A stretch of 64,000 nucleotides of DNA from Mycolicibacterium sp. YH-1 (GTDB taxonomy: Bacteria > Actinomycetota > Actinomycetes > Mycobacteriales > Mycobacteriaceae), in contig NZ_CP092915.1 in assembly GCF_022557175.1 (NCBI RefSeq), positions 2,108,001-2,172,000 of the forward strand. The letters run 5' to 3'. The notes beneath the pieces are model-generated. The model searched no databases, was not told where the DNA came from, and saw only the letters and a program-made list of their open reading frames with translations. How positions within the stretch are numbered: position 1 is the stretch's first letter; each line of letters begins with the position of its first letter. The position numbers and the translations under genes are program-made. Positions 1,743 through 56,403 of the stretch are shown in pieces.

Positions 1743-2790
1743 CCCGGGCCTAGCATCGATGCATCGATGAATCGGCTGGTGAATTGGTGTCGTAACGAGG
1801 AAAGTGCCTTGTGGACGGTGATGATGAGCGTTGCCGTGCCCTGGTTTAACGGGCCCGAGCATGCCTGGGGCTTCGACATGAACCTCCAGCAACTCTGCTC
1901 CGGACAGCAACCGACACCGCACGCCATCTCAGAAGGAATGGGTGGCTTCTGGGCCAAAGCCGCTCTGGGGACGAAGGATTAGGCGGTGTCTCGTTCCTAG
2001 AGAAGCGAGCCAACTCACCGACGGCCGCGTGCTCGCCGCGTAGTCCGAGGTCGTGGTGTCTCACTACTCGTCACACACAACGTGTCTCACCTCCGCAGTG
2101 TCGGGGCGATGAGACTACCCAAGCTCGAACTCGGCCCAGTTGCGCTGGTCGATCCGGTGAGTGGTACTGCTGTTGGAGCAGCCGGCCACCCCGACGGTGA
2201 GGGCATTCTGAACCAACGCTGGTGGACATCGGCAGCTCTGGATGCCGCCCACGGCGGTCGAGTCTTGTTCTCGCCGAGGGACTTTCCGCGAATGCTGCGA
2301 TTCCTCCTAGGTGGTGGTCCGACCCATACTCCGACCGAGCTCGGCCGATACTTCGGCTAAAGGGCGGTGCCCCTACGGGCCGTCATGCCGCCTGAACTCG
2401 TCCGCACGTCCGAGTCTGTATCGACTCACCGATGGTGGTCCGTCTCCACGAAATATGCGGCTTTTGAGATGAACTCGGGGTCGCAGCTGAGTTTGGCCTC
2501 ATATGACAGAACGGCCTGCCATGCGACTCAGGGGCCGATCCGGTTGCGGGTGGGTGTCATGGTCGCCATTCGGCGAATGGACACGAAAGGGGGTGGACAT
2601 CGAGTAAGAACCTCGCCATTGGCGGAGTGCAGGGCAACGCTCAAGCACGCCCAGGCTTCGCCTGACCGGCCGGCTCGGGTTTGACGGTGAGGGCGAGTTG
2701 TCGGCCATCCGCCCAGCCACCCGGTTGGTTACCGAATCTTCAAGCCGCGCAAGCAGAAGCAGCGGTTGATGGGTGACACCAGTTGACCAG
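1743..2790. other. About 1 kb without a convincing gene
   Basis: Only short open frames are present. One + strand frame (2082-2360, 92 codons from GTG, with LELGPVALVDPVSGTAVG) has plausible codon use but no recognisable family and no good ribosome binding site. Another at 1713-1982 overlaps the terminator and is not credible. The stretch is best read as decayed accessory DNA continuous with the uridine-kinase relic to its right. Confidence 0.4.
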
Positions 2791-3119
2791 TCCCACCCGG
2801 TGGTGAGTGTTTCCGTCGATGGCTTGCACCACCCCACATCGGTTCGCCATCGACAGGGCCGTCACCCCCCCGGAGGGGTTTTGGGCTGACTCCTACGACT
2901 ACGAGCGTTTGCGCACTGATGTACTCGAACCGCTCGAGCCCGATGGATCACGTCGTTACCGCACCAAGTCCCATGGCCACGGCCGCAGACGCCATCGTTA
3001 ACCCGCCGTATCAGGTAGCTCCACTGGACACCGTCCTCATCGTCGAGGGCATCTGCTTGCATCGCGACGAGCTAATGGATGAGTGGGATCTCACCGTCAA
3101 CTCGGAGGCTAGAAACTGA
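2791..3119 (+). pseudogene. Uridine kinase-like relic, multiply frameshifted
   Basis: Three reading frames in succession give pieces of the actinobacterial uridine kinase/P-loop kinase family. First comes VSVSVDGLHHPTSVRHRQGR (normally VSVDGFHHPR...YRQGR), then EGFWADSYDYERLRTDVLEP and SRRYRTKSH, then, after another shift near 2960, NPPYQVAPLDTVLIVEG and CLHRDELMDEWDL. The order and spacing match the middle of the family protein. The N-terminal Walker A part and the C-terminal third are missing. It is therefore a non-functional remnant. Confidence 0.65.
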
Positions 3120-3614
3120 TTCGCAGATCAGCCAGGCGGAGGAAAGGGTGGTCGCGAGGTCTGCCGCGCGTCGAGACCTCCGCAGAATCACCGCAATGGA
3201 ACGGTCAAATGCGACATCCGGTAGAGGGTGCGTGGATCGATGCTTCAAATGTAGCTGCACGCTGTAAGCGCGACTCTTCATCGTCCGCAAACATGAAAGA
3301 GCGTAACGCCTGTAACGCAGGGTGTTCGGAACTTCGCGGTGTGGCAGCTGGCCTGTCGGTCGACGGTACGTTCGTAGAAGTTTGGGTATGGAGTTGACGC
3401 GTCCCGATCCTTCAGGCACGCGCCGCTGGGGTGATCGGTTTTGACAGCGCATACTTCGCAACCCATCCACACAATGTGACCTGGCTCACATTGTGTCTTC
3501 CTGCAAATACTGATTGTGTGATCAGGACGGTGAAGCGACGTCCTCGATCGAGAGGAAGGTGGCACTGCACAACTCAGAATCAGATCAGCTCCGGACCCAA
3601 TGTGAGACGGACTG
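3120..3614. other. About 500 bp with no gene seen
   Basis: No protein family, RNA gene or mobile element is recognisable here. It holds the left boundary and probably the promoter of the biosynthetic operon. An imperfect inverted repeat around 3471-3497 (ACAATGTGACCTGGCTCACATTGT, arms ACAATGTGA/TCACATTGT) is perfect over 9 bp with a 6-nt spacer and could be a regulator-binding site. Confidence 0.4.
3471..3494. promoter_or_regulatory. 9-6-9 inverted repeat, candidate operator upstream of the operon
   Basis: ACAATGTGA-CCTGGC-TCACATTGT is a perfect palindrome of two 9-bp arms. It lies about 120 bp before the small split ORF and about 370 bp before the MppP-like gene. A site of this architecture fits a GntR, TetR or CRP-type dimer (TGTGA...TCACA is the CRP-family core). 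Which protein binds is not visible. Confidence 0.5.
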
Positions 3615-3831
3615 ATGACAGCGGAGCGACAGTCTCCGCAATCGTCGCTTTACGACCTGGAAGCGCGCAGGCGTCGGATCCCCTTCCGGGTCGGAGCCAA
3701 GATCGTGCTCATCCACGCCGCACTTACTTAGCCAGTACGAGTCGGTGCTTACGTACCCGAAATTCGTACGGCGTCAATCATTTACCGGCCCGGACACAAA
3801 GATTCCCCTGACGTCGCCTGACGTTGAGTGA
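3615..3831 (+). pseudogene. Small ORF split by a CTTA duplication
   Basis: A 38-codon ORF (ATG 3615 to TAG 3729-3731; includes LYDLEARRRRIPFRVG and KIVLIHAALT) is continued in the next frame by an open stretch from 3727 to a TGA at 3829-3831 (SQYESVLTYPKFVRR, SFTGPDTKIPLTSPDVE). The switch falls on a direct duplication CTTACTTA (3723-3730). Removing one CTTA copy would fuse both parts into about 70 residues (HAALSQYE at the joint). I do not recognise the protein. It lies 33 nt before the MppP-like gene and may be a degraded first gene, a frameshift-regulated leader, or a sequencing error. Confidence 0.45.
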
Positions 3832-3864
3832 TATCCGTTGCCGCGATAGAAGTTGGAAGGGAAC

Positions 3865-5076
3865 ATGACAGTGAGCGTTAGCGGACTTGAACGCATCGCC
3901 AGCGGCCAGGACGAAGAGAAGATCTTCGAGGACCTCACACAGCACGAAATCGTGGCACTGAGGACCCAGCACAACCTGGCCGACGCCCACACCCATCAGA
4001 AACAGTCGAGTTCGCAACGCGACATCGTTGAGTCGTTACCCACGTTGTGGTTCGAAGCCGAGCAGAAATCCCAACACCACTTCGAGCAGAAGTTCATCGA
4101 AGCATTCTTTGAGCTTCACGGCCAGAAGGATGTGCCGGCCATGAACCGGACGCTGCTGGCATATGCCGCGTCGGTCAGCATGGTGATCATCGGCATGTAC
4201 CTCAAGCGGCGGAACCTGACCGTGTCGTTGATCGAGCCTTGCTTCGACAACCTGGCGGATCTCTTGAAGGAACTCCAGGTGGGCCTGTCGCCACTTCCCG
4301 AAGATGTCCTCGCGGATCCCTCAACTATCTACGAGAAGCTTGTCGCCACAGTGCAAACGGACGCCGTGTGCGTTGTCGACCCCAACAATCCCTCGGGGTT
4401 CACAATGCTGGCCAACGGCGAGGAGTCCTTCGCCGAGCTCATTCGGTACTGCGTCGATTACCAGAAGACGCTGATCATGGACTTCTGCTTCGCGTCCTTC
4501 GCGCTCTGTGATCCAAAGATCGGCAGGATTCCCATCTATGGAATGCTCGAGTCATCCGGTGTGTCGTACATCGCCATCGAAGATAGTGGCAAGACATGGC
4601 CAGTTCAAGATGCCAAGTGTGCTTTGGTGACGACGAGCAGGGACCTCTTCGACGACGTCTACAACACGCAGACGACAGTGATACTCAATGTTTCGCCCTT
4701 CACGTTGAACGTCCTTGAGAAGTATGTGCGCGATTCCATCTCCGATGGCTTTGCGTCCGTTAGGGAAACGATCACAACGAACCGGCAGGCCGCGATTGAG
4801 GCACTCTCGGGGACAATCCTCGAGCACGTACCACCGGTGGTGGAGACGAGCGTGGCATGGTTCGCGATACGGGACCCTGACTTGAACGCGACGCGACTGC
4901 AACAGATGCTGGTCGAACACGACGTCTATGTCCTTCCCGGAACGTATTTCTTCTGGAATTCACCGGAACTGGGCGACCGGCATGTGAGAGTGGCGCTGGC
5001 GCGGGAACCCGAGATGTTTCGAGAGGCTGTGGCCGCACTCGCCGATGCGCTGAACAAGATTGCCCGTGACCGCTGA
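3865..5076 (+). CDS. MppP/RohP-like PLP-dependent L-arginine oxidase family enzyme
   Basis: This 403-aa fold-type I PLP enzyme resembles MppP (enduracididine pathway) and RohP (azomycin pathway), which use O2 to turn L-arginine into 4-hydroxy-2-oxo- and 2-oxo-arginine. Matching motifs are the N-terminal lid LTQHE (T25, E28), NLADAH (D40, H42; MppP has NIADGH), AASVSM, EPCFDNLADLL with the PLP-stacking Phe, DPNNPSG, the Schiff-base motif IEDSGKTWP (K243), NVSPFTLNVLEK and the carboxylate-binding Arg in HVRVAL. Offsets to the MppP N-terminal residues (T12, E15, D27, H29, as recalled) are constant, so the oxidase-specific lid looks intact. The ATG follows GGAAGGGAA; the longer TTG start is rejected. 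It is the first enzyme gene of the operon. A plain aminotransferase activity remains possible. Confidence 0.82.
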   Translation: MTVSVSGLERIASGQDEEKIFEDLTQHEIVALRTQHNLADAHTHQKQSSSQRDIVESLPTLWFEAEQKSQHHFEQKFIEAFFELHGQKDVPAMNRTLLAYAASVSMVIIGMYLKRRNLTVSLIEPCFDNLADLLKELQVGLSPLPEDVLADPSTIYEKLVATVQTDAVCVVDPNNPSGFTMLANGEESFAELIRYCVDYQKTLIMDFCFASFALCDPKIGRIPIYGMLESSGVSYIAIEDSGKTWPVQDAKCALVTTSRDLFDDVYNTQTTVILNVSPFTLNVLEKYVRDSISDGFASVRETITTNRQAAIEALSGTILEHVPPVVETSVAWFAIRDPDLNATRLQQMLVEHDVYVLPGTYFFWNSPELGDRHVRVALAREPEMFREAVAALADALNKIARDR

Positions 5077-5878
5077 CGCGACCAGTGTCGTCGTGCCGCT
5101 CGTCACGCCCGTCAATTCAGCGGGTGAGGTGTCGACGGCATGTCTGAGTGCGCTGATCAGCACTCTGGCCGGCAGGGTTGACGGCTACATCACCGGCTTG
5201 AGCACCGGCGAAGGCTGGAAGCTCACGGAATCACAGTGGGTGGCGCTGACCGAGTCAGCTGTCGCGCATGCGGGCAGAGTTCCCGTCTACGCCGGAATCT
5301 TGAGACCGACAACAGATGAAGTATGCCGCCTTGCGCGCCTAGCGCCGGGTCTCGGTGTCAACGGGGTTGTCGTCACCCAGCCATTCGGAATTGATGTCGA
5401 CGCCCACGACGCCATCCGGCACTTCGCCAGCATCTACGAGGACTGCGAGCTTCCGATCATTCTCTACCACGAAGATGCTCTCGCAAAGACCTTGCTGGAC
5501 AGCGATGTACTCGCGGAGATCATTCAGCGAGCCGATATAGCCGCTATCAAGGACTCCAGCGGATGTGGTGGTGCGGACCCCTGGAGACGATTGCCGCCCA
5601 TTCGACGACTGCAGGGTAATGAAACTCTGCTCCACACTGACCCAGCAGATGGGGCAATCGTTGGCTTGGCGAACCTCGAACCCGCACTGATTAGGCAGAC
5701 TATCGCGTCTAAACCGCAAGCGGCAGAACGCATTGCAACCGCAGTTGCGCGATATCAACTACAAGCTCCGAATTGGTATCAGCATCTCAAGGAAGAACTG
5801 CACCGGCGAGGAGTCATCACTTCGGCTGACTCGCTGGCTACCTCCCCATCGCCGGATCCGCGCGTTTCCAACATCTAG
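5066..5878 (+). CDS. DapA/DHDPS-family pyruvate aldolase
   Basis: This is a 270-aa TIM-barrel class I aldolase of the dihydrodipicolinate synthase/N-acetylneuraminate lyase family. The Schiff-base lysine is in AAIKDSSG (K162), the catalytic Tyr in IILYHED (Y134, where many relatives have YN.P), and the carboxylate-binding loop is GLSTGEGWKL (usually G.TGE...LT). The GTG start overlaps the preceding gene by 11 nt, implying translational coupling. In azomycin biosynthesis a DHDPS homologue (RohR, as recalled) performs retro-aldol cleavage of 4-hydroxy-2-oxoarginine to pyruvate and guanidinoacetaldehyde. The pairing with an MppP-like gene here points to the same chemistry. It is not a lysine-pathway DapA by context. 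The last ~20 residues are Ser/Pro-rich. Confidence 0.8.
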   Translation: MTADATSVVVPLVTPVNSAGEVSTACLSALISTLAGRVDGYITGLSTGEGWKLTESQWVALTESAVAHAGRVPVYAGILRPTTDEVCRLARLAPGLGVNGVVVTQPFGIDVDAHDAIRHFASIYEDCELPIILYHEDALAKTLLDSDVLAEIIQRADIAAIKDSSGCGGADPWRRLPPIRRLQGNETLLHTDPADGAIVGLANLEPALIRQTIASKPQAAERIATAVARYQLQAPNWYQHLKEELHRRGVITSADSLATSPSPDPRVSNI

Positions 5879-5894
5879 AGTCAGGAGAACTCTC

Positions 5895-7292
5895 ATGCAG
5901 CAGATGAGCCAGGCAGCCCCCGTTCGAATTGATCGAGAGCGAATTGCGGATCTCACCGCCCGCGAAGAACGCGCGTTTCGCGAAGCCACGCCGAAGTCTG
6001 CAGCGATGCTCGACCGTGCGAAGCGCTCGCTATCTGGTGGAGTGACTTCCTCCTACCAGTTTCACGACCCTTGGCCGGTGTACCTCAGCACGGGGTATGG
6101 CGCCCGCGTCTGGGACGTTGACGGCAACGCAATGTGGGACTTCCACAATGGATACGGGTCCATGGTTCAAGGACATGGCCATCCTGCGATCGCCGCGGCG
6201 ATCGCGGAGCGATCGAAGATCGGAACACATTTTTGCGCGACCACCGAGGACGCCGTGATCGTCGCTGAGGAGCTACAGAGGCGATGGAGCCTACCTCAGT
6301 GGCGATTCACCAACTCGGGCACCGAATCGACCATGGACGCCATCCGGATCGCCCGCGCCTACACCGGCCGAGACACGATATTGAAGATATTTGGCTCGTA
6401 CCATGGCCACCACGACGCAGTGATGGTGTCGATCGCGGTTGGCTATGACCAGCCGATCGGTGCCCCCGACAACCTGGCGTCTCTGCCCTACGGGGCGGGT
6501 ATTCCGGCTCAGACGGTGGAACTGACGGTCGCGGTGCCCTTCAACGACGCTGCGGCACTCGAAGCGCGGATCGTGAGACTCGAACGGGAAGGGCGAAAGC
6601 CGGCGTGCCTGATCATGGAGGCAGCGCTGATGAATATGCGGATCATCCTGCCTGAGGACGGCTACCTCCAGCAGGTACGTGATATCACCCGCCGCCATGA
6701 CATCGTCTTGATCTTCGACGAAGTGAAGACAGGGCTATGCCTGGCAGCCGGCGGAGCCACCGAGGTATTTGGTGTGATGCCCGATATGGTGACCCTGGCC
6801 AAGGCCCTAGGCGGCGGACTACCCAGTGGCGCAATCGGTGGAACCGCGGACATCATGTCCGTTGTCGAGGACGGCCGCGTCTACCAAGTCGGCACCTTCA
6901 ACGGGAATCCGTTGGTCGCCGCCGCTGCGCGAGCGAGCCTGACGCAAGTACTTACGCCCGAGGCCTACGAACGCATGTCCCTACTGAATCAGTCGCTCGT
7001 CGACGGCTGCAACAAGGTGCTGCAACGCTATTCGATCGGGGGATACGCCACGGGCCTGGGCGCGAAAGGGTGCGTCGTCTTCTCTGACTCGAAGATCACG
7101 GACTACGCCAGCTTTCACGCTAATGAAGATCACGAACTCAGCGACCTCGCCTGGCTATTCAACTTCAACCGAGGCATCTTCACGACGCCGGACCGGGATC
7201 AGGAATGGACGCTGTCGGTCGTTCATCCACCAGAGGCCATAGAACGCTACATATCGAACCTGGACTCGATGGCGGCCGAACTCGTCAAATGA
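5895..7292 (+). CDS. Glutamate-1-semialdehyde aminomutase-like class III aminotransferase
   Basis: This 465-aa protein belongs to the HemL-like branch of class III PLP aminotransferases. Motifs in order are SGGVTSSYQF, NSGTESTMDAIR, SYHGHHDAVM, FDEVKTG, the PLP-lysine motif LAKALGGGLPSGAIGG (K303) and GTFNGNPLVAAA. The ATG follows AGGAGAACTCTC 16 nt after the aldolase stop; a longer frame running back into the aldolase gene is rejected. In this operon it probably does not make tetrapyrroles. Most likely it aminates the aldehyde or 2-oxo acid made by the preceding enzymes, for example guanidinoacetaldehyde to 2-guanidinoethylamine (inference). Confidence 0.8.
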   Translation: MQQMSQAAPVRIDRERIADLTAREERAFREATPKSAAMLDRAKRSLSGGVTSSYQFHDPWPVYLSTGYGARVWDVDGNAMWDFHNGYGSMVQGHGHPAIAAAIAERSKIGTHFCATTEDAVIVAEELQRRWSLPQWRFTNSGTESTMDAIRIARAYTGRDTILKIFGSYHGHHDAVMVSIAVGYDQPIGAPDNLASLPYGAGIPAQTVELTVAVPFNDAAALEARIVRLEREGRKPACLIMEAALMNMRIILPEDGYLQQVRDITRRHDIVLIFDEVKTGLCLAAGGATEVFGVMPDMVTLAKALGGGLPSGAIGGTADIMSVVEDGRVYQVGTFNGNPLVAAAARASLTQVLTPEAYERMSLLNQSLVDGCNKVLQRYSIGGYATGLGAKGCVVFSDSKITDYASFHANEDHELSDLAWLFNFNRGIFTTPDRDQEWTLSVVHPPEAIERYISNLDSMAAELVK

Positions 7293-7338
7293 TGAGGACC
7301 ACGCTGCCCGCGTCACTCATTCGTGGGGCGGGGTCCGC

Positions 7339-8193
7339 ATGACCGTAGTCTTGTTCGCCGCGCTAAGTTCAATCGCCTTTGGCGGTTCGGACTTCTGCGG
7401 GGGGCTTGCCAGCCGACGATTCGCAACACTCAAGGTGCTGGTGGTGGCGGCGCCCGCCACCTTGATCATCGATCTCGCGGCGTGGCACGCCTTCGGTGGC
7501 ACATGGTCGGTCAGTGCCGCCGCATGGGGAGGGATCTCAGGTGCGGCCTATGCCGTGGGTTTCGGTCTGCTCTACTGGTGCCTGGCAAACGGGCCGATCA
7601 TCGTGCTGTCTCCCGTCAGTGCGACTGTCTCTGCACTCATTCCAGTGGCGGCGGGATTGTCCTTCGGCGAGACACTGACCAGCGTGGGACTCGCTGGCAC
7701 CGTGATCGCGATCGTGGCGGTATTCCTATTGGGGTTATCTGGCGACGAATCGCGAGAGGTATCCACTCGCCCCACAATGCTGACCCTTGGAGCGGCGATC
7801 GGAGCCGGAGCGGCAGTTGCATTGCAGCTCATATGTCTCGATCGGGCACCGCATCAGAGTGGTATGGCGCCTGTAGTCGCTGGCAGTGCCGTCGCGACCC
7901 TGCTGGTGTGGACTGCCGTTCCCTTGGTCCGCGCCCGCATCGGCAGCGATGGACGACTGCGCGACTGGAGCGCAGCCGTCGCGGCTGGAGTCCTGGACTC
8001 ACTCGCCACGATCGCGTTCTTACTCGCTGTCCGCGCAGGCGACCTCGCTGTCGTCGCTGTGATCACGGCGCTCTACCCGGCGGGCACCATCGTGCTCGCT
8101 CGCCTCGTGCTGCGAGAGACGGTCTCGCGAGTCCAGTTCGGTGGGCTGTTGACTGCTGGGCTCGCCGTGACGCTACTGGCGCTCAGTTCTTAA
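7339..8193 (+). CDS. EamA/DMT-family transporter
   Basis: The 284-aa integral membrane protein has about ten hydrophobic segments arranged as two five-helix halves, the layout of the drug/metabolite (EamA) transporter superfamily. It begins VVLFAALSSIAFGGSDF and its second half includes VIAIVAVFLLGL and VVAVITALYPAGTIVLARLVL. The ATG is preceded by a GGGGCGGGG purine-rich box, 46 nt after the aminotransferase stop. Relatives commonly export amino acids or small metabolites. As the only transporter of the operon it is a good candidate for product efflux or self-protection. Confidence 0.8.
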   Translation: MTVVLFAALSSIAFGGSDFCGGLASRRFATLKVLVVAAPATLIIDLAAWHAFGGTWSVSAAAWGGISGAAYAVGFGLLYWCLANGPIIVLSPVSATVSALIPVAAGLSFGETLTSVGLAGTVIAIVAVFLLGLSGDESREVSTRPTMLTLGAAIGAGAAVALQLICLDRAPHQSGMAPVVAGSAVATLLVWTAVPLVRARIGSDGRLRDWSAAVAAGVLDSLATIAFLLAVRAGDLAVVAVITALYPAGTIVLARLVLRETVSRVQFGGLLTAGLAVTLLALSS

Positions 8194-8247
8194 GCCACAG
8201 GTGCGACCTTCCAACCATCAAATGAAGAACAGATTCTGGGGGTGGAC

Positions 8248-8847
8248 ATGTCTGATCTCCTGCACGGACGTCTCGACACGAAATCGGAAGTCCGCGAGCG
8301 CTATACGGAAGTGCAACGAAGACCGCTCTCTGCCCACGAAGCCCGCGTCTTCATGGCCGAGATTCGTGGCTCCTCGTGCATCACGGGATACAGCTATCGC
8401 GAATGGACGGGCCGTCGGGATGTGTTCGTCACGGTGGACCGCGCCAGCCAGCGCGCAGTTGCCGCCATGTTGATCCACCGACTGCCCGGGGGCGTGAGCG
8501 AACTTGCCGTCGTGTTTGTCCTCGAGGAGTTCCGCGGTTTCGGCCTCGCCAAGCAATTGATCCGCTTCGGTCTCCGGACAATGCGCGGCGATGGTCGCAC
8601 GAAGATCATCTTCTACTCCGATGATCAGATGCACGCGATCGTCGCCGCCGCTGGGTTCACGACATACCCAGATTTGGCTGATTACTGTGCCCATCAGTGG
8701 TCCCGGCGCCTCTATTACACGGCCATGTACAAACCGGTCTGGCTGCTGAACACATACAGGATCCGCGAGATTGCCCGTAAACGCCGAGAGTTGGGCAGCG
8801 GCTTCGACTTCAGGATTGGCGTCATCGAACGAGGGGAACCGCAGTGA
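8248..8847 (+). CDS. GNAT-family N-acetyltransferase
   Basis: The 199-aa protein carries a GNAT core. Beta-strand 4 and the acetyl-CoA loop are seen in ELAVVFVLEEFRGFGLAKQLI (R-G-F-G-L variant of Q/R-x-x-G-x-G/A), followed by TKIIFYSDD and the late AAAGFTTYPDL element. An aromatic, basic C-terminal extension (WSRRLYYTAMYKP...) is not typical of small GNATs. The ATG follows GGGGGTGG. It overlaps the argH-like start by 4 nt (GTGA). Possible roles are acetylating an amine intermediate or the finished product (tailoring or self-resistance), or an N-acetylglutamate synthase-like step. I cannot separate these. Confidence 0.72.
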   Translation: MSDLLHGRLDTKSEVRERYTEVQRRPLSAHEARVFMAEIRGSSCITGYSYREWTGRRDVFVTVDRASQRAVAAMLIHRLPGGVSELAVVFVLEEFRGFGLAKQLIRFGLRTMRGDGRTKIIFYSDDQMHAIVAAAGFTTYPDLADYCAHQWSRRLYYTAMYKPVWLLNTYRIREIARKRRELGSGFDFRIGVIERGEPQ

Positions 8848-10367
8848 GCGACCACGAGAAGCTGCGTGAGGGGCAATCGCTCTCGCACAGTAGCGAACGG
8901 CATTCGACGCCGATGACTGACGATCAGCGTGGTCCGAATCCGATGTGGGGTGGACGATTTGAGGGCGGCGGAAGCGACCTGCTGACGAGAATCAACTCCA
9001 CAGTTCATTTCGACTGGCGACTACTGCTTCAAGACATCCAAGGATCGATCGCCCATGCACGAATGCTTGGCCAGCAGAACATCATTGAGCCGGTCGATGC
9101 CGACATCATAATTGGCGGACTGAAGGCGATCCGCGCCGAGGCCGAGGCAGGCACACTTCGACTCGATCCTGAACTCGAAGATGTACACATGAACGTCGAA
9201 GCAAGATTGAGTGAGCTGATCGGCCCCGTGGCCGGCAATCTTCACATCGGCCGTTCGCGAAACGACCAGGTGGTGCTGGACACACGGATGTGGACCTTGG
9301 AGGCGATCGGCCGAATCGACGTCGCCCTCGACGGTCTCATCGAGCAGCTCGCCATACGCGCTCTGGAGCATGCCGACGACGCGATGCCCGGATTCACTCA
9401 TCTTCAAGTGGCGCAACCCGTTACCATAGGCCATCATCTGCTGGCTTATGCCCAGATGTTCCTACGGGACCGTCACCGATTTGTCTGCGTCCGCAATCGC
9501 ACCGACGTCTCGCCGTTGGGGGCCGCAGCCCTGGCTGGGACCAGTCACTCGATCGATCCGTCTGCTGTTGCAGCCGACCTAGGGTTCTCTGGTCTCTTCG
9601 CGAACTCCATCGACGCCGTCTCCGACCGCGACTTCATCATCGACTACTTAGCAGCCGGTGCACAGCTCGCAGTTCACCTGTCGCGCCTGGGTGAGGAAAT
9701 CGTGATCTGGGCATCGCGGCAGTTCGGCTTCGTAACCGTCTCCGAAGGGCTGTCCGCCGGCTCGTCGATCATGCCGCAAAAGTGCAATCCTGATGTCGCC
9801 GAGCTGATCCGCGGGAAGGCTGGCCGCGTTATCGGAAGCTTGATCGGATTGCTCACCGTGCTCAAAGGGCTTCCTCTCGCCTACAGTCGCGATCTCCAGG
9901 AGGACAAGGAAGCGCTCTTCGACGCGGCCGACACGCTGGAACTGTGCACGGAGGCCGCCATGCGTCTGACCGAGGGCATGCGCTTTGACGTCGTACGGAT
10001 GAGAGCCGAAGCTGCCGAGGGAAACTCGCTGGCCACCGACCTTGCGGACTGGCTGGTGACGGAACGATCGCTGACGTTTCGCTCGGCTCACCACACAGTG
10101 GGCCTCGTCGTCAAGACGTTGGCGCAACGCGGACTGGAACTGTCTGACGTCGACACCGACGAGCTGGCATCCATTGAGCCGCTGTTCGGTGGCGCCACGG
10201 CCGAACTCCTCTCTGTTGAAAATGCCATCCGCCGCCGCCGTTCACCGGGAGGCACGTCGCCAGAGAACGTGAGGGTCGCGGCCGAACGCCTTCGTGAGGC
10301 CAGTGCGAGATACCGACAATGCCCTACGGCGTTATTCGACGAGTGTGAAGGAGGTCCAACCCGATGA
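8844..10367 (+). CDS. argH: Argininosuccinate lyase (operon-specific paralogue)
   Basis: The 507-aa protein belongs to the fumarase/aspartase superfamily, ArgH branch. Visible are PMWGGRFEGG near the start, HIGRSRNDQV, GFTHLQVAQP, the catalytic-loop signature AGSSIMPQKCNPD (around residue 306) and SRDLQEDKE. The signature has Cys where most ArgH have Lys (PQKKNP). Known lyases are about 460 aa; the extra ~30 residues come from the GTG start that overlaps the GNAT gene. An internal ATG at 8913 would give a standard N-terminus. The reaction is argininosuccinate to arginine plus fumarate. Placement next to argG but outside the usual arg gene run suggests a dedicated copy. Confidence 0.85.
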   Translation: MSDHEKLREGQSLSHSSERHSTPMTDDQRGPNPMWGGRFEGGGSDLLTRINSTVHFDWRLLLQDIQGSIAHARMLGQQNIIEPVDADIIIGGLKAIRAEAEAGTLRLDPELEDVHMNVEARLSELIGPVAGNLHIGRSRNDQVVLDTRMWTLEAIGRIDVALDGLIEQLAIRALEHADDAMPGFTHLQVAQPVTIGHHLLAYAQMFLRDRHRFVCVRNRTDVSPLGAAALAGTSHSIDPSAVAADLGFSGLFANSIDAVSDRDFIIDYLAAGAQLAVHLSRLGEEIVIWASRQFGFVTVSEGLSAGSSIMPQKCNPDVAELIRGKAGRVIGSLIGLLTVLKGLPLAYSRDLQEDKEALFDAADTLELCTEAAMRLTEGMRFDVVRMRAEAAEGNSLATDLADWLVTERSLTFRSAHHTVGLVVKTLAQRGLELSDVDTDELASIEPLFGGATAELLSVENAIRRRRSPGGTSPENVRVAAERLREASARYRQCPTALFDECEGGPTR

Positions 10368-11605
10368 CGAACGGCCAATCTGCGAAAGACCGCACCGATA
10401 GAGTGGCGCTAGCGTACTCCGGGGGTGTTGACACGACTGCCTGCATCCCATATCTGAGACACGAAATGCGGTGCAGCTACATCGTCGCAGTGCTCGTCGA
10501 TCTGGGACAGCCCGAAGATCTCGACGGGCTAAGGCAGAAGGCGCTCGATGCGGGTGCAGACCAGGCGCTCATCGTCGATTGCAAGGATTCTCTTGTGTCC
10601 GATTTTGCGCTGCGTGCAATTGCGGCGAACGCCGTTTACGACCGCCATTATCCTTTGTGCTCCGCCCTGGGTCGACCCTTGATCGCATCCGAGCTGGTGA
10701 AAATCGCCCACGACCACGGCTGCGGTGCCGTCGCGCACGGCTCAACGGGCAAGGGGAACGACCAAGTGCGGTTTGACCTCGCGATCCGGCTGCTCGACCC
10801 TCGGCTAACTGTGATCGCCCCGGCCCGACTGTGGGACTTCTCGCGTGCCGACACCATCAAATACTCGTTGAAGCACGGGATAGCGCCACATGTCACGACC
10901 GAGAGTCCGTGGGCGATAGACATGAACATTCTGGGTCGAAACGTGGAGGCAGGCTCAATAGAAGACCTCGAATGGGAGCCGACCGAAGAAGTGTGGCACC
11001 TAGTCACCAATCCTGAGAGCTGCCCCGACGTCGCCGAGTATGTCAGCGTGGCCTTCGATAGAGGACGGCCCACGATGGTCAACGGTGTACCGCACAGCGG
11101 CTTCGAGTTGATCCGAACACTGAACGACATCGGCGGCCGCAACGGCGTCGGGCGCGTCGACATGATTGAGAACCGCGTCGTAGGTATCAAGTCGCGCGAA
11201 CTGTACGAGGTGCCGGGACTGCACCTGCTGCTATTGGCGCATCGTGAGATCGAAAACCTCGCTTTGCCGGCCGATGTGCTCGCCCAGAAAGCTGCACTTG
11301 AGCCGGCGTACGCCAGGCTGATCTATGACGGGATGTGGTTCTCGCTCCTGCGTTCGGCACTCGACGGCTTCATCGACAGGACAGACTGTTACGTCACTGG
11401 TGAAGTCACAATCAAGTTGTTCAAGGGAAGCTCCTCCGTCGTGCGGCGGACCGCACCAAAGAGCCTGTATCGACCCAACCTCGTCACCTATGGCTCAGGG
11501 TCGCAGTTCGACCAGAGCAGCGCCGAAGGGTTCATCGACATCTTCGGTCTCTCTAACCGCGTCTGGAGCGAGGTTCACTCGTCACCTCTCAGCGCAATGG
11601 CCTAA
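10364..11605 (+). CDS. argG: Argininosuccinate synthase (operon-specific paralogue)
   Basis: The 413-aa protein shows the ATP-pyrophosphatase loop LAYSGGVDTTACIPYL and the second signature HGSTGKGNDQVRFDLAIR, followed by SPWAIDMNILGR, VGRVDMIENRVVGIKSRE and GLWFS-like DGMWFSLL. It ligates citrulline and aspartate with ATP. SGGVDT with CIPYL is the cyanobacterial/plant-type form, whereas the mycobacterial housekeeping enzyme (as recalled) reads SGGLDTSVAI, so this is probably an acquired paralogue. It starts at an ATGA overlap with argH and is the last gene of the operon. The substrate could be citrulline or a modified ureido compound. Confidence 0.87.
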   Translation: MTNGQSAKDRTDRVALAYSGGVDTTACIPYLRHEMRCSYIVAVLVDLGQPEDLDGLRQKALDAGADQALIVDCKDSLVSDFALRAIAANAVYDRHYPLCSALGRPLIASELVKIAHDHGCGAVAHGSTGKGNDQVRFDLAIRLLDPRLTVIAPARLWDFSRADTIKYSLKHGIAPHVTTESPWAIDMNILGRNVEAGSIEDLEWEPTEEVWHLVTNPESCPDVAEYVSVAFDRGRPTMVNGVPHSGFELIRTLNDIGGRNGVGRVDMIENRVVGIKSRELYEVPGLHLLLLAHREIENLALPADVLAQKAALEPAYARLIYDGMWFSLLRSALDGFIDRTDCYVTGEVTIKLFKGSSSVVRRTAPKSLYRPNLVTYGSGSQFDQSSAEGFIDIFGLSNRVWSEVHSSPLSAMA

Positions 11606-11647
11606 GTGCAAGTCGCTCGCCGAATGGTAGGCCTCCGTAGAGGTCCG

Positions 11648-12265
11648 TCACCCGAGACCGAGAAGCTCAAAGCCGGCCTTCTGCGCAAGCTCCCGTGCGC
11701 GACTCTCGGTGACTTCCGAGTCGTTAAGGGCTACTTGCGCTGTCATGCCGTCGAGCATTGCGGCCATTACCACCGCGAACTCACGCTCGTCGACGGAGGC
11801 ATCGACGTCTCCGTTGATCTGGCCCTCGCGAACGACATGGGTGATGAGGTCTCGCCACGCCCGTGCATGGAACGCGCGCGCCTCTGCTATCTCGACGTGG
11901 CGCTGAGCCTGGGCCAACAACTCGAAGTACAACCCCCACTGCATACGAGTATCGTCGTCGTCCGCTGCGCACGCCATCTCGATGAGTATGGCCAATCGGT
12001 CTTTGACAGATTTCGCGCGGCCAAGCCTCACCAGGGCCGCCTCACGGAAGTCGGACTCCGAGCGCTTGAGTGTCTCCAGCAGGAGATTCTCCCGCGTTTC
12101 GAAGTGGTAGAACACCAGGGCGGTGCTGACGTTTGCCCGCTGGGCAACGTCGGCAATGCGGGTGTCGCTGTATCCTCGCTCGATGAGCGTCAAGGCTGCA
12201 GCGTGGATGATCGCATTTCTGCGACTCTGATTCTTAGCCGTCATGACCGGCGGGTTGCGGGTCAT
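11648..12265 (-). CDS. TetR-family regulator (BetI-like)
   Basis: The 205-aa protein has an N-terminal TetR helix-turn-helix: RRNAIIHAAALTLIERGYSDTRI, then VAQRANVSTALVFYHFETRENLL. The all-helical C-terminal half (AALDGMTAQVALNDSEVT-like region) resembles BetI-type ligand domains. It is convergent with the arginine-type operon (43 nt apart) and lies downstream of the amidohydrolase gene on the same strand. It could control either the operon or the amidohydrolase/permease pair. An internal ATG 21 nt in (TAKNQSRR...) is an alternative start. Confidence 0.8.
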   Translation of the reverse strand: MTRNPPVMTAKNQSRRNAIIHAAALTLIERGYSDTRIADVAQRANVSTALVFYHFETRENLLLETLKRSESDFREAALVRLGRAKSVKDRLAILIEMACAADDDDTRMQWGLYFELLAQAQRHVEIAEARAFHARAWRDLITHVVREGQINGDVDASVDEREFAVVMAAMLDGMTAQVALNDSEVTESRARELAQKAGFELLGLG

Positions 12266-12661
12266 CGCTGACCTCTCCTTCCTCCGGGTTGGTTGACCGG
12301 TGAATCAGGTTGCAATTGTATCGCCTCCACGACCGGGCGCCGCGCGGCCTGAGTTTGCCCGCCATCGCATTGGCCACCGGCAGTGTCCCGGGCAGCGGTT
12401 GCTCAACCGATGGCACGATTGCGGCCAATGCTTGGCTCGGTCGTGTTCAGCGATCGCGGGGCCTCACCGCTCGGTCGTCGCGTCCCATCAACCAAACCGC
12501 CGCTGTCAGATTCGAGTTGGTCTCACACCTCGTTAGCCGCAGCCAACCATCAGATTGGTCTTATGTGAAAGCAATTGGAAGATGACTCCTCACCTCGCGA
12601 CCGTGGCGCACGAAGCGTCGCGCCATCGGTTGATGGGCCGAGGCGGCTAAGTCGAGCCTGC
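12266..12661. other. About 400 bp without a supported gene
   Basis: Short frames here (for example 12310-12585) have no family resemblance or ribosome binding site. The region contains the upstream region of the TetR gene (minus strand) and the 3' side of the amidohydrolase gene. Confidence 0.4.
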
Positions 12662-14290
12662 CTACTGCTCGTAGACGACGGCGCCGGCCAGGACCGTGTA
12701 GATGACTTCGGCCTCGCCTACCGGCCCAGTCGTCGGGTCGAAGACGTTACGGTCAATGATGGCGAAGTCAGCGCGCTTTCCCACCTCGATGGAACCGCCG
12801 CCACGGTCGTGGTTCACGTAGGCACTACCGGCAGTGAAAGCCCTCAACGCGGCAGGCAGTGTGAGGGCTTGGTCGGGACAAAATGGACGTGCACCGCGAT
12901 CGGCTGGGTCGGTACGAGTGACCGCGACCTCGATCTGCTCCAGGGGATTGGCCGTTGTGACCGCCCAATCACTACCCATTGCTAGCGTGGCGCCCGCGCG
13001 CGCGAGATCGCCGAAGGGATACATCGCCCGGATGCGACTCTTTCCGATCTGGGGCGCAGTCATGTCAGTGATCGTCGCATCTGCTTTTGCCCAGAACGTC
13101 TGACAGTTGGCAACGACCCCGAGGGCGCGGAATCGGTGGATGTCATCTGGGTGGACCAGCTGAACGTGGGCGATGTGGTGACGGTTGTCTCCAGCGCCGT
13201 TACGGACTTGGGCAACCTCAACGGCGTCCAGCGAGGCCCGTACCGCACGATCGCCGATGGCGTGCATGTGGACCTGGAAGCCACTCGCGTCCAATGCGGT
13301 AACTGCAGCTTTGAGCATCCTCTCGTCCACGTGCATCATGCCGCTGTCAGGCTGAATGCCGCCGCAACCACGGCAGTATGGCTCAAGTAGCGCTCCCGTG
13401 TAGTTCTCCAGGATGCCATCGACCATGATCTTGACGGTGCCAGCCCGAAAGGTGGGCCGCGTGCTTTGGTTACGTTCCTCGATAAAGCGGTCGATCTGTT
13501 CCAGCCCCTGGTCCCACTCCCACCACTGAGCGCCGACTACCCGGGTGGGTAAACGCCCCTGGTCGGCTAACGAGCGGTAGGCATCCGCAGTTGCGGGGGT
13601 GACCCACGCATCTTGCCACCCGGTGATTCCTAGGCTCCAAAGATGGTTCTGCGCTTCGAGTATGGCGTGTTCCCAGGTCTGCCGGGATGGTATTGGAACG
13701 TGAATCTTGTTGAAGTCGAACGCCGCTGCCTCTTGAAGCGTCCCGATCGCCTCTCCGGTGTCTGGGTCGCGTTCGATTCGCCCATTGGGCGGGTCCGGTG
13801 TGTCGTCATCGATTCCGGCCCGGCGAAGGGCCTCTGAGTTCACCCAGGCTGCGTGGACATCACGGCTGAACAGGAATACCGGCCTGTCTGGACACACCTT
13901 GTCTAGAAGTCGCTTTGAGGCAACGCCGCGCGGAAAGTGTTCGAGAGACCATCCTCCGCCGATGATCCACTCGATGTGTGGGTGGGCTCGTTCGAATGCG
14001 GTGATGCAGCTGAGATAGTCCTCGATCCCGCCGAGAGCTTCGAGATCGACGTGGAGACGGTTCAGCCCGGCGAAGGGTGCGTGTACGTGTGCGTCCTGAA
14101 ATCCCGGGACGACCAAACCGCAAGGGATGTCGATCACCATGGTGTCGATCGTTGTCGCCGCAGCAACATGGCGGCTGCCCAATGCCACGATTTGTCCGTC
14201 CCTCACCGCGATTGCGTCGGACCAGCTCCCTGCAGCATCAGCTGTATAGACAGATCCGTTGCGGATCACCAAGTCTGCAGTGATGGTCAT
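12662..14290 (-). CDS. YtcJ/NfdA-like metal-dependent amidohydrolase
   Basis: The 542-aa amidohydrolase-superfamily enzyme is of the long YtcJ/N-substituted formamide deformylase type. It has the N-terminal small beta-domain (ADLVIRNGSVYTAD, DGQIVALG), the metal motif GFQDAHVH, FLFSRDVHAAWVNSEAL, GTVKIMVDG (position of the bridging Lys), the His-rich VHMHAIGDRAVR, HHIAHVQLV, and the terminal metal Asp in AMGSDWAV. The start is the ATG 4 nt after GGAGGC; the upstream GTG is rejected. It diverges from the NCS1 permease, and the pair suggests uptake and hydrolysis of a nitrogenous compound (N-formyl, cyclic amide or similar). The substrate cannot be read from the sequence. Confidence 0.82.
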   Translation of the reverse strand: MTITADLVIRNGSVYTADAAGSWSDAIAVRDGQIVALGSRHVAAATTIDTMVIDIPCGLVVPGFQDAHVHAPFAGLNRLHVDLEALGGIEDYLSCITAFERAHPHIEWIIGGGWSLEHFPRGVASKRLLDKVCPDRPVFLFSRDVHAAWVNSEALRRAGIDDDTPDPPNGRIERDPDTGEAIGTLQEAAAFDFNKIHVPIPSRQTWEHAILEAQNHLWSLGITGWQDAWVTPATADAYRSLADQGRLPTRVVGAQWWEWDQGLEQIDRFIEERNQSTRPTFRAGTVKIMVDGILENYTGALLEPYCRGCGGIQPDSGMMHVDERMLKAAVTALDASGFQVHMHAIGDRAVRASLDAVEVAQVRNGAGDNRHHIAHVQLVHPDDIHRFRALGVVANCQTFWAKADATITDMTAPQIGKSRIRAMYPFGDLARAGATLAMGSDWAVTTANPLEQIEVAVTRTDPADRGARPFCPDQALTLPAALRAFTAGSAYVNHDRGGGSIEVGKRADFAIIDRNVFDPTTGPVGEAEVIYTVLAGAVVYEQ

Positions 14291-14459
14291 CTTGCCTCCG
14301 GTGGTCAAGTCAGCCAGTCGGTCCGTAGCGAGGATGACTCTGCAGCGCCACTTTGCGGCGCGACCCCAGCGGCCCGGCTGCGATGTTCGTCGACTTTCGT
14401 GGCGTCGTGATCAATAGTCGAGGCACGTTCCATTCCTGACTGTTCGATCAGGCACGATC

Positions 14460-14493
14460 TTGACTCTTCAAGCCCTTCGAGTCAAGGGGCTTG
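14460..14493. other. Interleaved inverted repeats, possible H-type pseudoknot
   Basis: TTGACTC (14460-14466) pairs with GAGTCAA (14479-14485), and CAAGCCC (14469-14475) pairs with GGGCTTG (14487-14493). The four arms alternate, so in RNA both 7-bp stems can form together only as an H-type pseudoknot, or they are mutually exclusive. The site lies between the divergent amidohydrolase (start 14290) and permease (start 14806) genes. Confidence 0.55.
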
Positions 14494-14570
14494 GGAATCT
14501 TGCATTGGATCGTCAGGATCATCCATCGGCCGCTCGCTGGACCGCTGCTTGTTGCGATGCCTGCGCAAAA

Positions 14571-14605
14571 GCGACAAACAATAAGGTTATCTCTTGGCTT
14601 GTCGC
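14571..14605. promoter_or_regulatory. Inverted repeat in the amidohydrolase/permease divergent region
   Basis: GCGACAA (14571-14577) and TTGTCGC (14599-14605) are perfect complements separated by 21 bp of AT-rich sequence containing GGTTATCT. It could be an operator pair for the flanking TetR or MarR protein. The rest of the 14309-14805 region shows no gene. Confidence 0.35.
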
Positions 14606-14805
14606 CACGAAGATATAGAAGTACAAAGTCCACCTCTGCGGGCCGAGGAGTTGCGCTTGAAGTTTGAGTGGCAAAACTGATCGCGCAGTCAGTTGTTCGG
14701 TTATGCTGCGCTTCGGGGCAACGTGCTGGGGCGGCCTTCAAGCACCTATGGCCGAGGGTGGCGCACTCTGCGGTTGATCAGTCGAGTTTCGAGGGGGAAG
14801 CCGCG

Positions 14806-16641
14806 ATGTCACCAATACCGCAGACGCCCGGAAGCGAACATGCGACGAGGATCGAATCTCACTCCGTCGATGTCGTACCACTGGCCGAGCGGCACGGGCG
14901 GCTCGCGAGCTTGGGGGCGGTGTGGTTCGTCTCTAACCTTAATCCTACGGCGATGGCGATCGGCATAGTGGTCCTTACTCTTGGGGGAACGCTGTTTTGG
15001 AGCCTCGCCGCCATGATCCTCGGCTCAGCTGTCGGCACCATCTTCATGGCCTTGCACTCGACTCAAGGCGCTCACCTTGGACTGCCTCAGATGATCCAAT
15101 CGCGTGCACAGTTCGGGTATGTGGGGGCGGCGGTCACAGTGTTCTTGCTGGCATTCGTCAACTACCTCGCGTACAACACGATGGACGCGATGCTCGTCAG
15201 CGATGCAGTTAACACGCTTACGGGTCTTCCCGTGAGCCTGGGCTATGTGTTAGCGGTGGTGATAGCTGCCTCCATCGCCTTGTTCGGGTACGACATGATC
15301 CACAAGGTGAGCCGCCTGCTCGTCTTTCCCACGCTGTGCGTAATGGGGGTGATGACCGTTGGCGTACTCACCCTCGACGGTATATCCCCGGCGCTCCTTA
15401 CCCCTGGCTCATTCGATGTCGCCGCGTTCATGACAGCGTTCGTAGTCACCGCGGGGTTCCAGCTTGGCTGGGCGCCGTACGTATCGGACTACTCGCGCTA
15501 CCTGCCCGCTTCCACGTCACCACGGAAACTGTTCTGGTGGACCTACATTCCCAGCGCGAGTTCGGCGATCTGGGTGTTCGTCATCGGGGCCCTCGCCCAA
15601 ATCGGAACTAACTCCAAGACACCCGTCGCGGCGTTCATTGGCGCCGGCGACGCCGTATACCCGGGCGCCGGAAGGGTCGTCGTCTGCGGACTCCTCGTCA
15701 CGCTTCTCGTCGTGATGGCAATCAACCAGTACGGCGGTAGCCTGACGTTGTTGTCTATCGCAGATTCAATCAAACCCATCGCGTCCACGCGCATGAAGCG
15801 AGCGGCCGCCATCGTGATCATGGCAATGATGGTGTGGACGATCGCCCACACGGTCGGCGAAGCCCGATTCAACGAGTTCTACAGCAACGCACTGATATAC
15901 CTCGCCTACGCGTTCACCCCTTGGACCGCCATCAACCTGACCGACTACTTCGTCGTTCGTCGAGGAAATTACGCGGTGAGCGACCTGATCGATCCGAGTG
16001 GGGGCATCTACGGCCGGTGGAACTGGCGGGGCAACGTCGTCTACGCGGCGACGTTGACGATCATGGTTCCCTTTATGGTCACGTCGCAGTTCGTCGGTGT
16101 ATTGGCCCAACGGATCGACAACGTCGACCTCTCACTCCCGGTAGGCCTTGCGGCAGGCACGATGCTCTACCTGGCGGTATCGAAGGTCCGCGACCGCGGT
16201 GCACAACCGGCGTCGGACGTACCGCGGCGCCAACGAGACTCGAAGTTCTGGCCCAGCCCATGCATTGGTGACTCGGCCATCCCCGCACTATCCACGCCCA
16301 CTGACTACCAACACCACCTCGCCGTTGCGGTCGTGAACAGCTCGTCGAATGAGATTGAGAACACCCAACCCGGCCGCCAAGCCGTCGGCTCAGTGCAGGC
16401 AGTCGAGATGGGGTGCTGTTCGAGTCGCCAACTGAACCTAGCGCTGGGACTACAGGGTAGGGATCGGGGGTCGGATTGGGTTGCCCACCAGTCGGTCCCG
16501 TACGCCGATCCCGTTGCCGTCGACAGTTCGGGCGAAAGCGTCGACAATCGCCGCGGAGTCCACTCGGCCGTCGGTATGATCAGGGCCCGTCGCAATGGAG
16601 AGCCAACTCGGTCAGTCGGCATAGGCCGCCTGACCCCGTAA
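14806..16641 (+). CDS. NCS1-family nucleobase/hydantoin-type permease with abnormal C-terminal tail
   Basis: Residues 1-465 form a normal NCS1 transporter with about 12 membrane segments. Typical stretches are LGAVWFVSNLNPTAMAIG, MIQSRAQFGYVGA, TAGFQLGWAPYVSDYSRYLP and WTAINLTDYFVVRRG. Relatives carry cytosine, purines, allantoin, hydantoin or thiamine precursors across the cytoplasmic membrane. Residues about 466-611 are hydrophilic, low in recognisable structure and read like translated non-coding DNA, so the native stop was probably lost or shifted near 16220. The ATG follows GAGGGGGAAG; the frame upstream of it is rejected. It is divergent from the amidohydrolase and followed by a MarR gene. 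Confidence 0.82.
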   Translation: MSPIPQTPGSEHATRIESHSVDVVPLAERHGRLASLGAVWFVSNLNPTAMAIGIVVLTLGGTLFWSLAAMILGSAVGTIFMALHSTQGAHLGLPQMIQSRAQFGYVGAAVTVFLLAFVNYLAYNTMDAMLVSDAVNTLTGLPVSLGYVLAVVIAASIALFGYDMIHKVSRLLVFPTLCVMGVMTVGVLTLDGISPALLTPGSFDVAAFMTAFVVTAGFQLGWAPYVSDYSRYLPASTSPRKLFWWTYIPSASSAIWVFVIGALAQIGTNSKTPVAAFIGAGDAVYPGAGRVVVCGLLVTLLVVMAINQYGGSLTLLSIADSIKPIASTRMKRAAAIVIMAMMVWTIAHTVGEARFNEFYSNALIYLAYAFTPWTAINLTDYFVVRRGNYAVSDLIDPSGGIYGRWNWRGNVVYAATLTIMVPFMVTSQFVGVLAQRIDNVDLSLPVGLAAGTMLYLAVSKVRDRGAQPASDVPRRQRDSKFWPSPCIGDSAIPALSTPTDYQHHLAVAVVNSSSNEIENTQPGRQAVGSVQAVEMGCCSSRQLNLALGLQGRDRGSDWVAHQSVPYADPVAVDSSGESVDNRRGVHSAVGMIRARRNGEPTRSVGIGRLTP

Positions 16642-16680: not shown

Positions 16681-17226
16681 ATGGCAACCGAACTCGCTCG
16701 GATCGCCGTAGTCCTGAAGAGAACACTCGAATCTCTTCATGGATCCGTCGACGACTTGGCGCGCGAATTGGTGAGGGTGCTCGGCGTCAATCAGACAGAT
16801 CGACGTGCCCTGGAACTCATACTCCTTGCGGGCGAGAAGGACACGACGCCGGGACTTCTAGCCGACCGGCTCGGCCTCACTGCCGCTGGCACCACAATCG
16901 TACTCAACCGCCTGGAGAAGCTGGGCTACGTCAGCCGATCGCTACATCCGACCGATCGGCGCCGAGTAATCGTGTTGGCCACAGATCTCGCCGCTCGCCG
17001 CACCTCGGAACTCGTCTCCCCGCTGCTGGATCAGGGCGGCAAGATGTTGTCGAGCCATTACAACGCGGCGGAGATTGCCCTAATCGTCGAGTTCCTCACC
17101 CGCACAGACGAACTACAACAAGCTCATCTGAACCGGATGCGCGAATTGGATCCTTACCCTCATCAGGCGTCATCGTCGATCTCCAGAACCGCGCACGCAC
17201 TGCATACGCCCTTGACGTTCGACTAA
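16681..17226 (+). CDS. MarR-family transcriptional regulator
   Basis: The 181-aa protein contains the winged helix of the MarR family: DRRALELILLAGEKD, TPGLLADRLGLTAAGTTIVLNRLEKLGYVSRS and the wing HPTDRRRVIVLAT. A coiled C-terminal dimerisation helix follows. The start ATG has GGGAGG 12 nt upstream. It is co-directional with and 39 nt downstream of the NCS1 permease, so it may regulate that uptake system. Its 3' end overlaps the convergent murC fragment by 57 nt. Confidence 0.8.
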   Translation: MATELARIAVVLKRTLESLHGSVDDLARELVRVLGVNQTDRRALELILLAGEKDTTPGLLADRLGLTAAGTTIVLNRLEKLGYVSRSLHPTDRRRVIVLATDLAARRTSELVSPLLDQGGKMLSSHYNAAEIALIVEFLTRTDELQQAHLNRMRELDPYPHQASSSISRTAHALHTPLTFD

Positions 17227-17982
17227 ACCACTAGATGTGGCTACGACGTTTACCGTTTCGGAGCTACCGAGTTGCAGGACGAGGCCAACGCCACCACTGA
17301 GTTGACGGGTATTCATCACGCTCTTAACCGCCAACTTCGCCGCCGCCGCGAACTCGTCGAAGGCCGCCGCGTACGCCTCTTTCGTCCCGTAGAAGTCGAG
17401 GTGATCAGCCCCCGCATTGGTCACCACGGCGATCTCGGGGGAGAACGCAACGAACGTCCGGTCACTTTCGTCGGCTTCGGTGACGAAGACGTCTCCCGTC
17501 CCGAGATGGGCACTAGTCCGTGATCCGATCAGCTCGGCGCCGATGGCATAGCTTGGGTCCAAGCCAGTGTGTTGAAGAGCCACGGTGAGCATCGAGGTGG
17601 TGGATGTTTTCCCCGCCGAGCCCGCGATGCATATGGCGCGATGATTGGCCATCAACGCGGCAAGCGCCTCCGCTCGGACCATGACCGGTAGCTGGCGCTG
17701 CCGCGCCGCCACAAGTTCTGGGTTTTCCTGCCGAATGGCCGTGGAGATGACGACCGTAACCTCGACGTCGGGAAGATTGGCGGAATGGTGCCCTACGAAC
17801 ACCTGTGCACCAAGTTCGCGCAACAGATGGACGTTCGCCGACTCGATCGTGTCAGAGCCGGACACCGCAACACCGCTGCTCAGCAACAGGCGCGCGACGC
17901 CAGTCATCCCCGCACCACCGATACCGACCAGGTGCGCGCGTCCGCCACATACCCACGAAGTCATGTCCAGGAAGTTTCCCAC
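17170..17982 (-). pseudogene. Truncated MurC-like ligase (N-terminal and partial central domain)
   Basis: The first ~220 of 270 residues match UDP-N-acetylmuramate-L-alanine ligase: the N-terminal nucleotide motif AHLVGIGGAGMTGVA, GSDTIES, a P-loop AGSAGKTSTTSML (normally GTHGKTTTT), EADESDRTF and NAGADHLDFYG. Homology stops inside the central ATP domain and is replaced by about 50 unrelated residues that run under the 3' end of the MarR gene. The C-terminal ligase domain is missing, and the P-loop differs at the His. A housekeeping murC must lie elsewhere. It is most likely a pseudogene. Confidence 0.75.
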
Positions 17983-56399: not shown

Positions 56400-56403
56400 C
56401 GAC

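Follow-up and report, generated by a model that had tools for sequence, protein, structure and literature searches.

A candidate operon for an arginine-derived guanidine compound, with RohP- and RohR-type enzymes, in Mycolicibacterium sp. YH-1

The stretch of DNA analysed here (the window) comprises 64,000 nucleotides of the Mycolicibacterium sp. YH-1 genome (contig NZ_CP092915.1, positions 2,108,001 to 2,172,000; coordinates below are those of the window unless given in Mb). Close to its left end lies a plus-strand operon of seven genes, which encode a RohP-type arginine oxidase, a RohR-type retro-aldolase, a class-III aminotransferase, an EamA-family transporter, a GNAT-like protein and the argininosuccinate enzymes ArgH and ArgG. 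The relationships of these proteins, the neighbourhoods of their relatives and the pathway that they may form are described below.

The seven genes

All seven open reading frames (ORFs) were verified on the same strand; they span 3853 (or 3865) to 11605, and neighbouring genes overlap by up to 17 nt or are separated by up to 48 bp. A first-pass annotation, made from the sequence alone, had reported the same tight series with a beginning at 3615; the genes and junctions stand, while the start moves to 3853 or 3865. Gene 1 (3853..5076; start TTG at 3853 or ATG at 3865) overlaps gene 2 (5060..5878) by 17 nt if TTG at 5060 is the start of the latter, and a 16-bp gap separates gene 2 from gene 3 (5895..7292), whose ATG at 5895 is preceded by AGGAGA. 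Gaps of 46 bp and 48 bp lie on either side of the EamA gene (gene 4, 7339..8193), and 4-nt overlaps join the GNAT-like gene (gene 5, 8242..8847) to argH (gene 6, 8844..10367; alternative start ATG at 8913) and argH to argG (gene 7, 10364..11605). All frames are open and keep the motifs of their families. Since seven enzyme and transporter families stand in series with such junctions, a chance pattern of ORFs is excluded and the operon is genuine. In a scan of 2700-12700, none of four sigma-70-like sites was located before gene 1, and the two terminator-like sites (against 5.6 in shuffles) were both within coding sequence.

The product of gene 1, a putative oxidase dependent on pyridoxal phosphate (PLP) and O2, matched Pfam family Aminotran_1_2 with 32 bits, and its best NCBIfam model was endura_MppP (150 bits, below the cut-off of 450). 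Among structures, PDB entry 6c3a gave 473 bits over residues 27-402, compared with 192 bits for MppP and 163 bits for 7n79. The database label of 6c3a is 'Uncharacterized protein'; we take it to be RohP of Streptomyces cattleya, and 7n79 to be an arginine desaturase. A midpoint-rooted tree of 48 rows with long branches flagged, from which L039 (a 3-kb contig) and the duplicates of L002 and L003 (L063 and L064) were omitted, placed gene 1 among 34 RohP-like rows (100/99) and, inside this set, with 29 RohPs (99/97); the azomycin-type RohPs of L059-L061 and the RohP relative of L062 fell outside this narrower group. Stretches characteristic of the RohP family are retained. By bit scores and tree alike, gene 1 is assigned to the RohPs among the MppP/RohP enzymes and, more narrowly, to the clade formed by azomycin RohPs, an assignment that bears out the first-pass proposal of an MppP/RohP-type PLP enzyme and answers in its favour the phylogenetic check suggested along with it. 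According to the accessible part of PMC7497351, RohP converts arginine to a hydroxylated keto acid. Assignment to MppP and the enduracididine pathway was ruled out by the low score and the lack of any MppR-type family among ten proteins scanned.

Gene 2 belongs to the dihydrodipicolinate synthase (DHDPS) family (79 bits) and retains the active-site lysine and tyrosine of DHDPS enzymes, both residues presumably having their usual roles. It is 33-40% identical to RohR proteins by tblastn (at most 41% over the tree columns) and has the stretches GEGWKL and KELHRRGVI in common with RohR of L002. With two other DHDPS proteins of the same genome as outgroup, 32 RohRs and gene 2 formed a single clade (99/95), so that the DHDPS-fold aldolase had rightly been proposed as a RohR counterpart; within the clade gene 2 is nearest L059-L061 (100/99), on a long branch. 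In azomycin synthesis, RohR acts as retro-aldolase and RohQ as cyclodehydratase, as summarised in the portion of PMC10724926 available to us.

Gene 3 is an aminotransferase of class III (Aminotran_3, 199 bits), resembling HemL and GntE at scores below the curated cut-offs (hemL 333 bits versus 527.3; GntE 311 bits versus 525). Matches at E <= 1e-80 occur in 57 of 246 genomes of the phylum, its own included, and the nearest relatives (57-65% identity) come from five of these genomes. A housekeeping HemL role is unlikely, given the score below the HemL cut-off and the location of the closest relatives in other genomes; the 15 other matches in its own genome reach 41% identity at most. Neighbours were scanned at two of the 11 relatives' loci whose surroundings were examined. 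One relative (L106) adjoins a protein resembling glutamine synthetase or gamma-glutamylputrescine synthetase, a permease and an aminobutyraldehyde-dehydrogenase-like protein, and another (L110) a carboxynorspermidine-synthase-like protein, all of these identities being below their cut-offs. They offer a hint, and no more, that the gene 3 family may act on amines or aldehydes. Two further loci of the 11 (L113 and L114) carry amidohydrolases related to that of the window (12662-14308; 52% and 44% identity); as the family is common, this was not taken as a link. Gene 1 was found in none of 299 genomes of the class that holds the nearest gene 3 relatives.

The EamA protein (51 bits to EamA, in two stretches) is a possible exporter. 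The GNAT-like protein gave a weak Acetyltransf_1 match (28 bits, cut-off 20.7), a best PDB match with an E-value of 0.0085 and a structure prediction with a mean predicted local distance difference test (pLDDT) score of 38.

Both argininosuccinate enzymes exceed their curated cut-offs (ArgH, 526 bits versus 279.5; ArgG, 455 bits versus 268.2). They form a second, divergent pair beside a housekeeping one at 3.158 Mb, which has the order argG-argH and is 43% identical to the operon in each protein, in keeping with the dedicated pair that the first-pass annotation had envisaged; a third ArgH-like protein above the cut-off is encoded at 7.06 Mb. Among 157 plasmid ArgH records, the 12 best, for the most part from alphaproteobacteria, show 50-53% identity to the operon ArgH, and plasmid ArgGs reach 44% identity to the operon ArgG. 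Because the plasmid ArgHs are closer than the housekeeping copy (50-53% versus 43%), the operon ArgH does not derive from the latter.

RohP loci elsewhere and the setting of the operon

Searches with gene 1 covered overlapping samples at three ranks (genus, 297 genomes; order, 397; class, 394), and returned gene 1 itself and 25 other places: nine with 53-60% identity (L002 and L003 reappearing as two of them), a single one with 48% and fifteen with 29-34%. A contig scan contributed 25 RohP loci at 57-61% identity. Neighbourhoods of up to 9-10 kb per side, shorter at contig ends, were compared by tblastn (E <= 1e-4, >38 bits). At all 32 distinct other loci with a RohP of at least 53% identity, RohQ, RohR, RohS-like and Rieske proteins were present and RohQ was situated between RohP and RohR, two genes that overlap in the window. 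EamA, GNAT, ArgH and ArgG had no match at any RohP locus examined; L065 and L066 contain a 27% aminotransferase match about 6 kb from a RohP relative. Neither RohQ nor RohR was detected near the 48% relative (L062) or the fifteen distant ones in the regions examined (3 kb for one of them).

Two of these loci deserve mention in their own right. The 48% RohP relative (L062:9333-10514) adjoins a class-II DAHP-synthase-like protein (320 bits, below the cut-off), and by eye an anthranilate-synthase-like protein is also encoded nearby, which hints that RohP-like enzymes are put to a different use there. The RohR match at L008:11766-12556, part of an azomycin-type cluster of Streptomyces diastatochromogenes, falls into two frames, owing to either a broken gene or a sequencing error.

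RohQ of L002 had no match in the 7.27-Mb genome to which the window belongs (E <= 0.01), the tblastn matches at 32 of 32 loci serving as an indirect control; a plain azomycin cluster was rejected on this ground, and the earlier remark that no RohQ-type cyclase is present is supported across the whole genome. A search of the window together with the preceding 10 kb, but not of the remaining genome, gave no match above 38 bits for three further L002 proteins, RohS, the Rieske protein and the reductase. The first-pass annotation had spoken of a missing Rieske oxygenase. No Rieske match was indeed found in this region; the wording was inexact, as N-oxygenation in azomycin synthesis is the task of RohS, a diiron enzyme of the haem-oxygenase-like kind (PMC10724926, same portion). 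The small Rieske protein is encoded next to RohS in azomycin-type loci.

Within the genus, gene 1 was found in one of 297 genomes, its own. The operon resides in a stretch, from about 2.037 to 2.134 Mb, where guanine-plus-cytosine (GC) content and third-position GC are lower (values mostly 0.65-0.81, compared with mostly 0.80-0.87 in the flanks examined). This stretch, of some 95-100 kb, extends between an rRNA operon and genes for a thiolase and glycogen branching, an order of genes that points to a mycobacterium. Composition, rarity and the foreign affinities of the genes suggest that the operon was probably acquired horizontally. A tRNA scan of 94 kb, reaching from upstream into the window, found none. 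Origin from a plasmid was rejected, with no near match to 3853-16641 in the plasmid collection: gene 1 had two plasmid matches (32% and 30%), gene 3 matched at 39% or less among 20 of 144 records listed, and gene 5 had none.

Downstream of the operon, and facing it, lies a gene for a TetR-family regulator on the minus strand (11648..12265; TetR_N 46 bits, TetR_C_6 52 bits), followed by the amidohydrolase (12662..14308, minus strand) and, 3 kb from the operon, by an NCS1 permease (14668..16641, plus strand); all three were counted outside the operon. A 270-aa Mur-ligase-like protein (17170-17982) comprises just the N-terminal domain and a portion of the middle one, and is much shorter than a usual MurC. 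The lower-GC stretch, whose right end corresponds to window positions 1 to about 26000, contains mce-like, Rieske-oxygenase-like and transposase-like genes, as judged by eye. Further on, ARAGORN called a tRNA-Pyl (CTA) at 56361-56454, overlapping the end of an ORF near a transposase-like gene (56515-57711); this is probably a false call.

A proposed route and its rivals

In the reading that we prefer, to which we give a probability of about 0.5 as the whole explanation of the operon, the front half of the azomycin pathway is combined with an amination that yields 2-guanidinoethylamine. ArgG and ArgH would supply arginine from citrulline and aspartate. Judging by its relationship to characterised enzymes, the RohP-type enzyme would convert arginine and O2 to 4-hydroxy-2-oxoarginine, which the RohR-type enzyme, on the same kind of evidence, would cleave at the C3-C4 bond to give pyruvate and guanidinoacetaldehyde. 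The class-III aminotransferase could then turn the aldehyde into 2-guanidinoethylamine, the two-carbon analogue of agmatine, and family and position allow the guess that the GNAT-like protein might acylate the free amine and EamA export the product.

These steps differ in strength. Arginine oxidation and retro-aldol cleavage are well supported by the affinities of genes 1 and 2. The transamination to 2-guanidinoethylamine and the supply of arginine by ArgG and ArgH are what we infer from the gene content, a similar arrangement on a Rhodococcus fascians plasmid offering an analogy for the latter. As the aminotransferase, transporter, GNAT-like protein and ArgH/ArgG take the place of the ring-forming and nitro-forming enzymes, the product is probably a different, still undescribed guanidine compound and not azomycin. 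More tentative, and somewhat short of an even chance, is the fuller proposal that the operon is devoted to turning arginine into 2-guanidinoethylamine, or an acyl derivative of it, for export, an azomycin-type cluster having lost its ring-closing and nitrating half and gained one that forms an amine and has an arginine supply of its own. The literature searched, most subscription papers being outside the search, made no mention of guanidinoacetaldehyde or 2-guanidinoethylamine (three names), and RohP appeared in none of the matches listed for comparable mycobacterial gene clusters.

Several observations weigh against the proposed route to 2-guanidinoethylamine. The seven-gene set was found in no other genome sampled, contrary to the conserved neighbourhood expected at the outset, and the other operon genes were absent near all 11 relatives of gene 3 whose surroundings were examined. 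The GNAT-like protein, with its weak family match, is an orphan, only its own copy being recovered from 351 genomes of the phylum (E <= 1e-6). In the SPWAID stretch of the operon ArgG, an alanine replaces the serine present in six of six aligned relatives (three PDB entries, the housekeeping copy and two plasmid copies); that serine presumably contacts citrulline, so binding of citrulline, or the substrate, could differ. Finally, the trees put gene 1 and gene 2 at different positions among the azomycin-type sequences, each on a long branch, a disagreement that reflects either separate gene histories or misleading long branches.

The rival that survives best, itself unlikely, holds that, on the model of enduracididine or mildiomycin synthesis, the DHDPS-fold enzyme releases no aldehyde and instead closes the keto acid into a ring or attaches the modified arginine chain to another molecule; a five-carbon keto acid would then be the substrate of the aminotransferase, and an unusual arginine-derived amino acid its product. 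The mildiomycin proteins MilM and MilN, a putative arginine oxidase and a DHDPS-type protein, lend it substance, since loss of milN abolishes mildiomycin production, according to the accessible text of PMC11784345. The clustering of gene 2 with RohR and its GEGWKL and KELHRRGVI stretches speak for a retro-aldolase instead, and MppR is acetoacetate-decarboxylase-like, a family lacking among the ten proteins scanned.

Less probable again is a 2-aminoimidazole or other cyclic guanidine, formed if the aldehyde cyclised spontaneously or by an unrecognised enzyme, with the aminotransferase, GNAT-like and EamA proteins serving elsewhere or in self-protection. Genes 1 and 2 do constitute an azomycin front end, and the NCS1 permease belongs to a type present in most azomycin clusters examined; however, the permease is only weakly similar to that of L002 (24% identity, 53 bits) and two opposite-strand genes separate it from the operon, and neither RohQ in the genome nor RohS or a Rieske protein in the window with its preceding 10 kb was matched. 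The least probable rival is a recently acquired relic, silent or degrading an arginine-like compound, which would suit the restriction of gene 1 to a single genome of the genus and the lower-GC surroundings, but sits poorly with seven open, tightly joined frames that keep their motifs and with arginine-making enzymes, ill-suited to arginine breakdown.

Comparison with known systems

A parallel to the back end of the operon is offered by plasmid pFiD188 of Rhodococcus fascians, where argH and argG occur in the same order with the same 4-nt overlap, beside a LysE translocator and other pathway genes. Its other pathway enzymes differ, and its ArgG and ArgH are 38% and 40% identical to those of the window.

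In the Fusarium fusaoctaxin pathway, Fgm1-3 form guanidinoacetate by C4 hydroxylation of arginine and cleavage of the C3-C4 bond, with a P450 and a PLP lyase instead of RohP and RohR, an acid as end product and release of alanine (PMC10967133, in the part accessible). The same text describes Fgm2 as an amidohydrolase, a family also represented at 12662-14308 of the window. The guanitoxin pathway, as far as the excerpt of PMC10367076 describes it, includes a retro-aldol step followed by transamination, as proposed here; gene 3 scores 311 bits to GntE, under the cut-off of 525, and the hydroxylation and aldol enzymes are different. The enduracididine route (MppP-MppR-MppQ) starts from the same wider family of arginine oxidases and proceeds to a transaminase, as in the operon, whereas MppP scored just 192 bits against gene 1 and the operon is devoid of an MppR-type family. 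In the mildiomycin cluster, compared by description only, the putative arginine oxidase gene adjoins and is co-transcribed with the DHDPS-type gene (PMC11784345, same text), much like genes 1 and 2; MilM and MilN serve a nucleoside antibiotic, whereas the operon proteins include no nucleoside enzymes.

The azomycin cluster rohPQRST of Streptomyces and Pseudomonas shares the RohP-type and RohR-type enzymes with the operon. The operon differs from it in the missing RohQ, RohS and Rieske matches, within the regions searched, and in the aminotransferase, EamA, GNAT-like, ArgH and ArgG genes. As all 32 other loci with a RohP of at least 53% identity are azomycin-type and this operon is not, the comparison suggests that RohP and RohR may be a separable module, able to supply a reactive guanidino-aldehyde to other chemistry.

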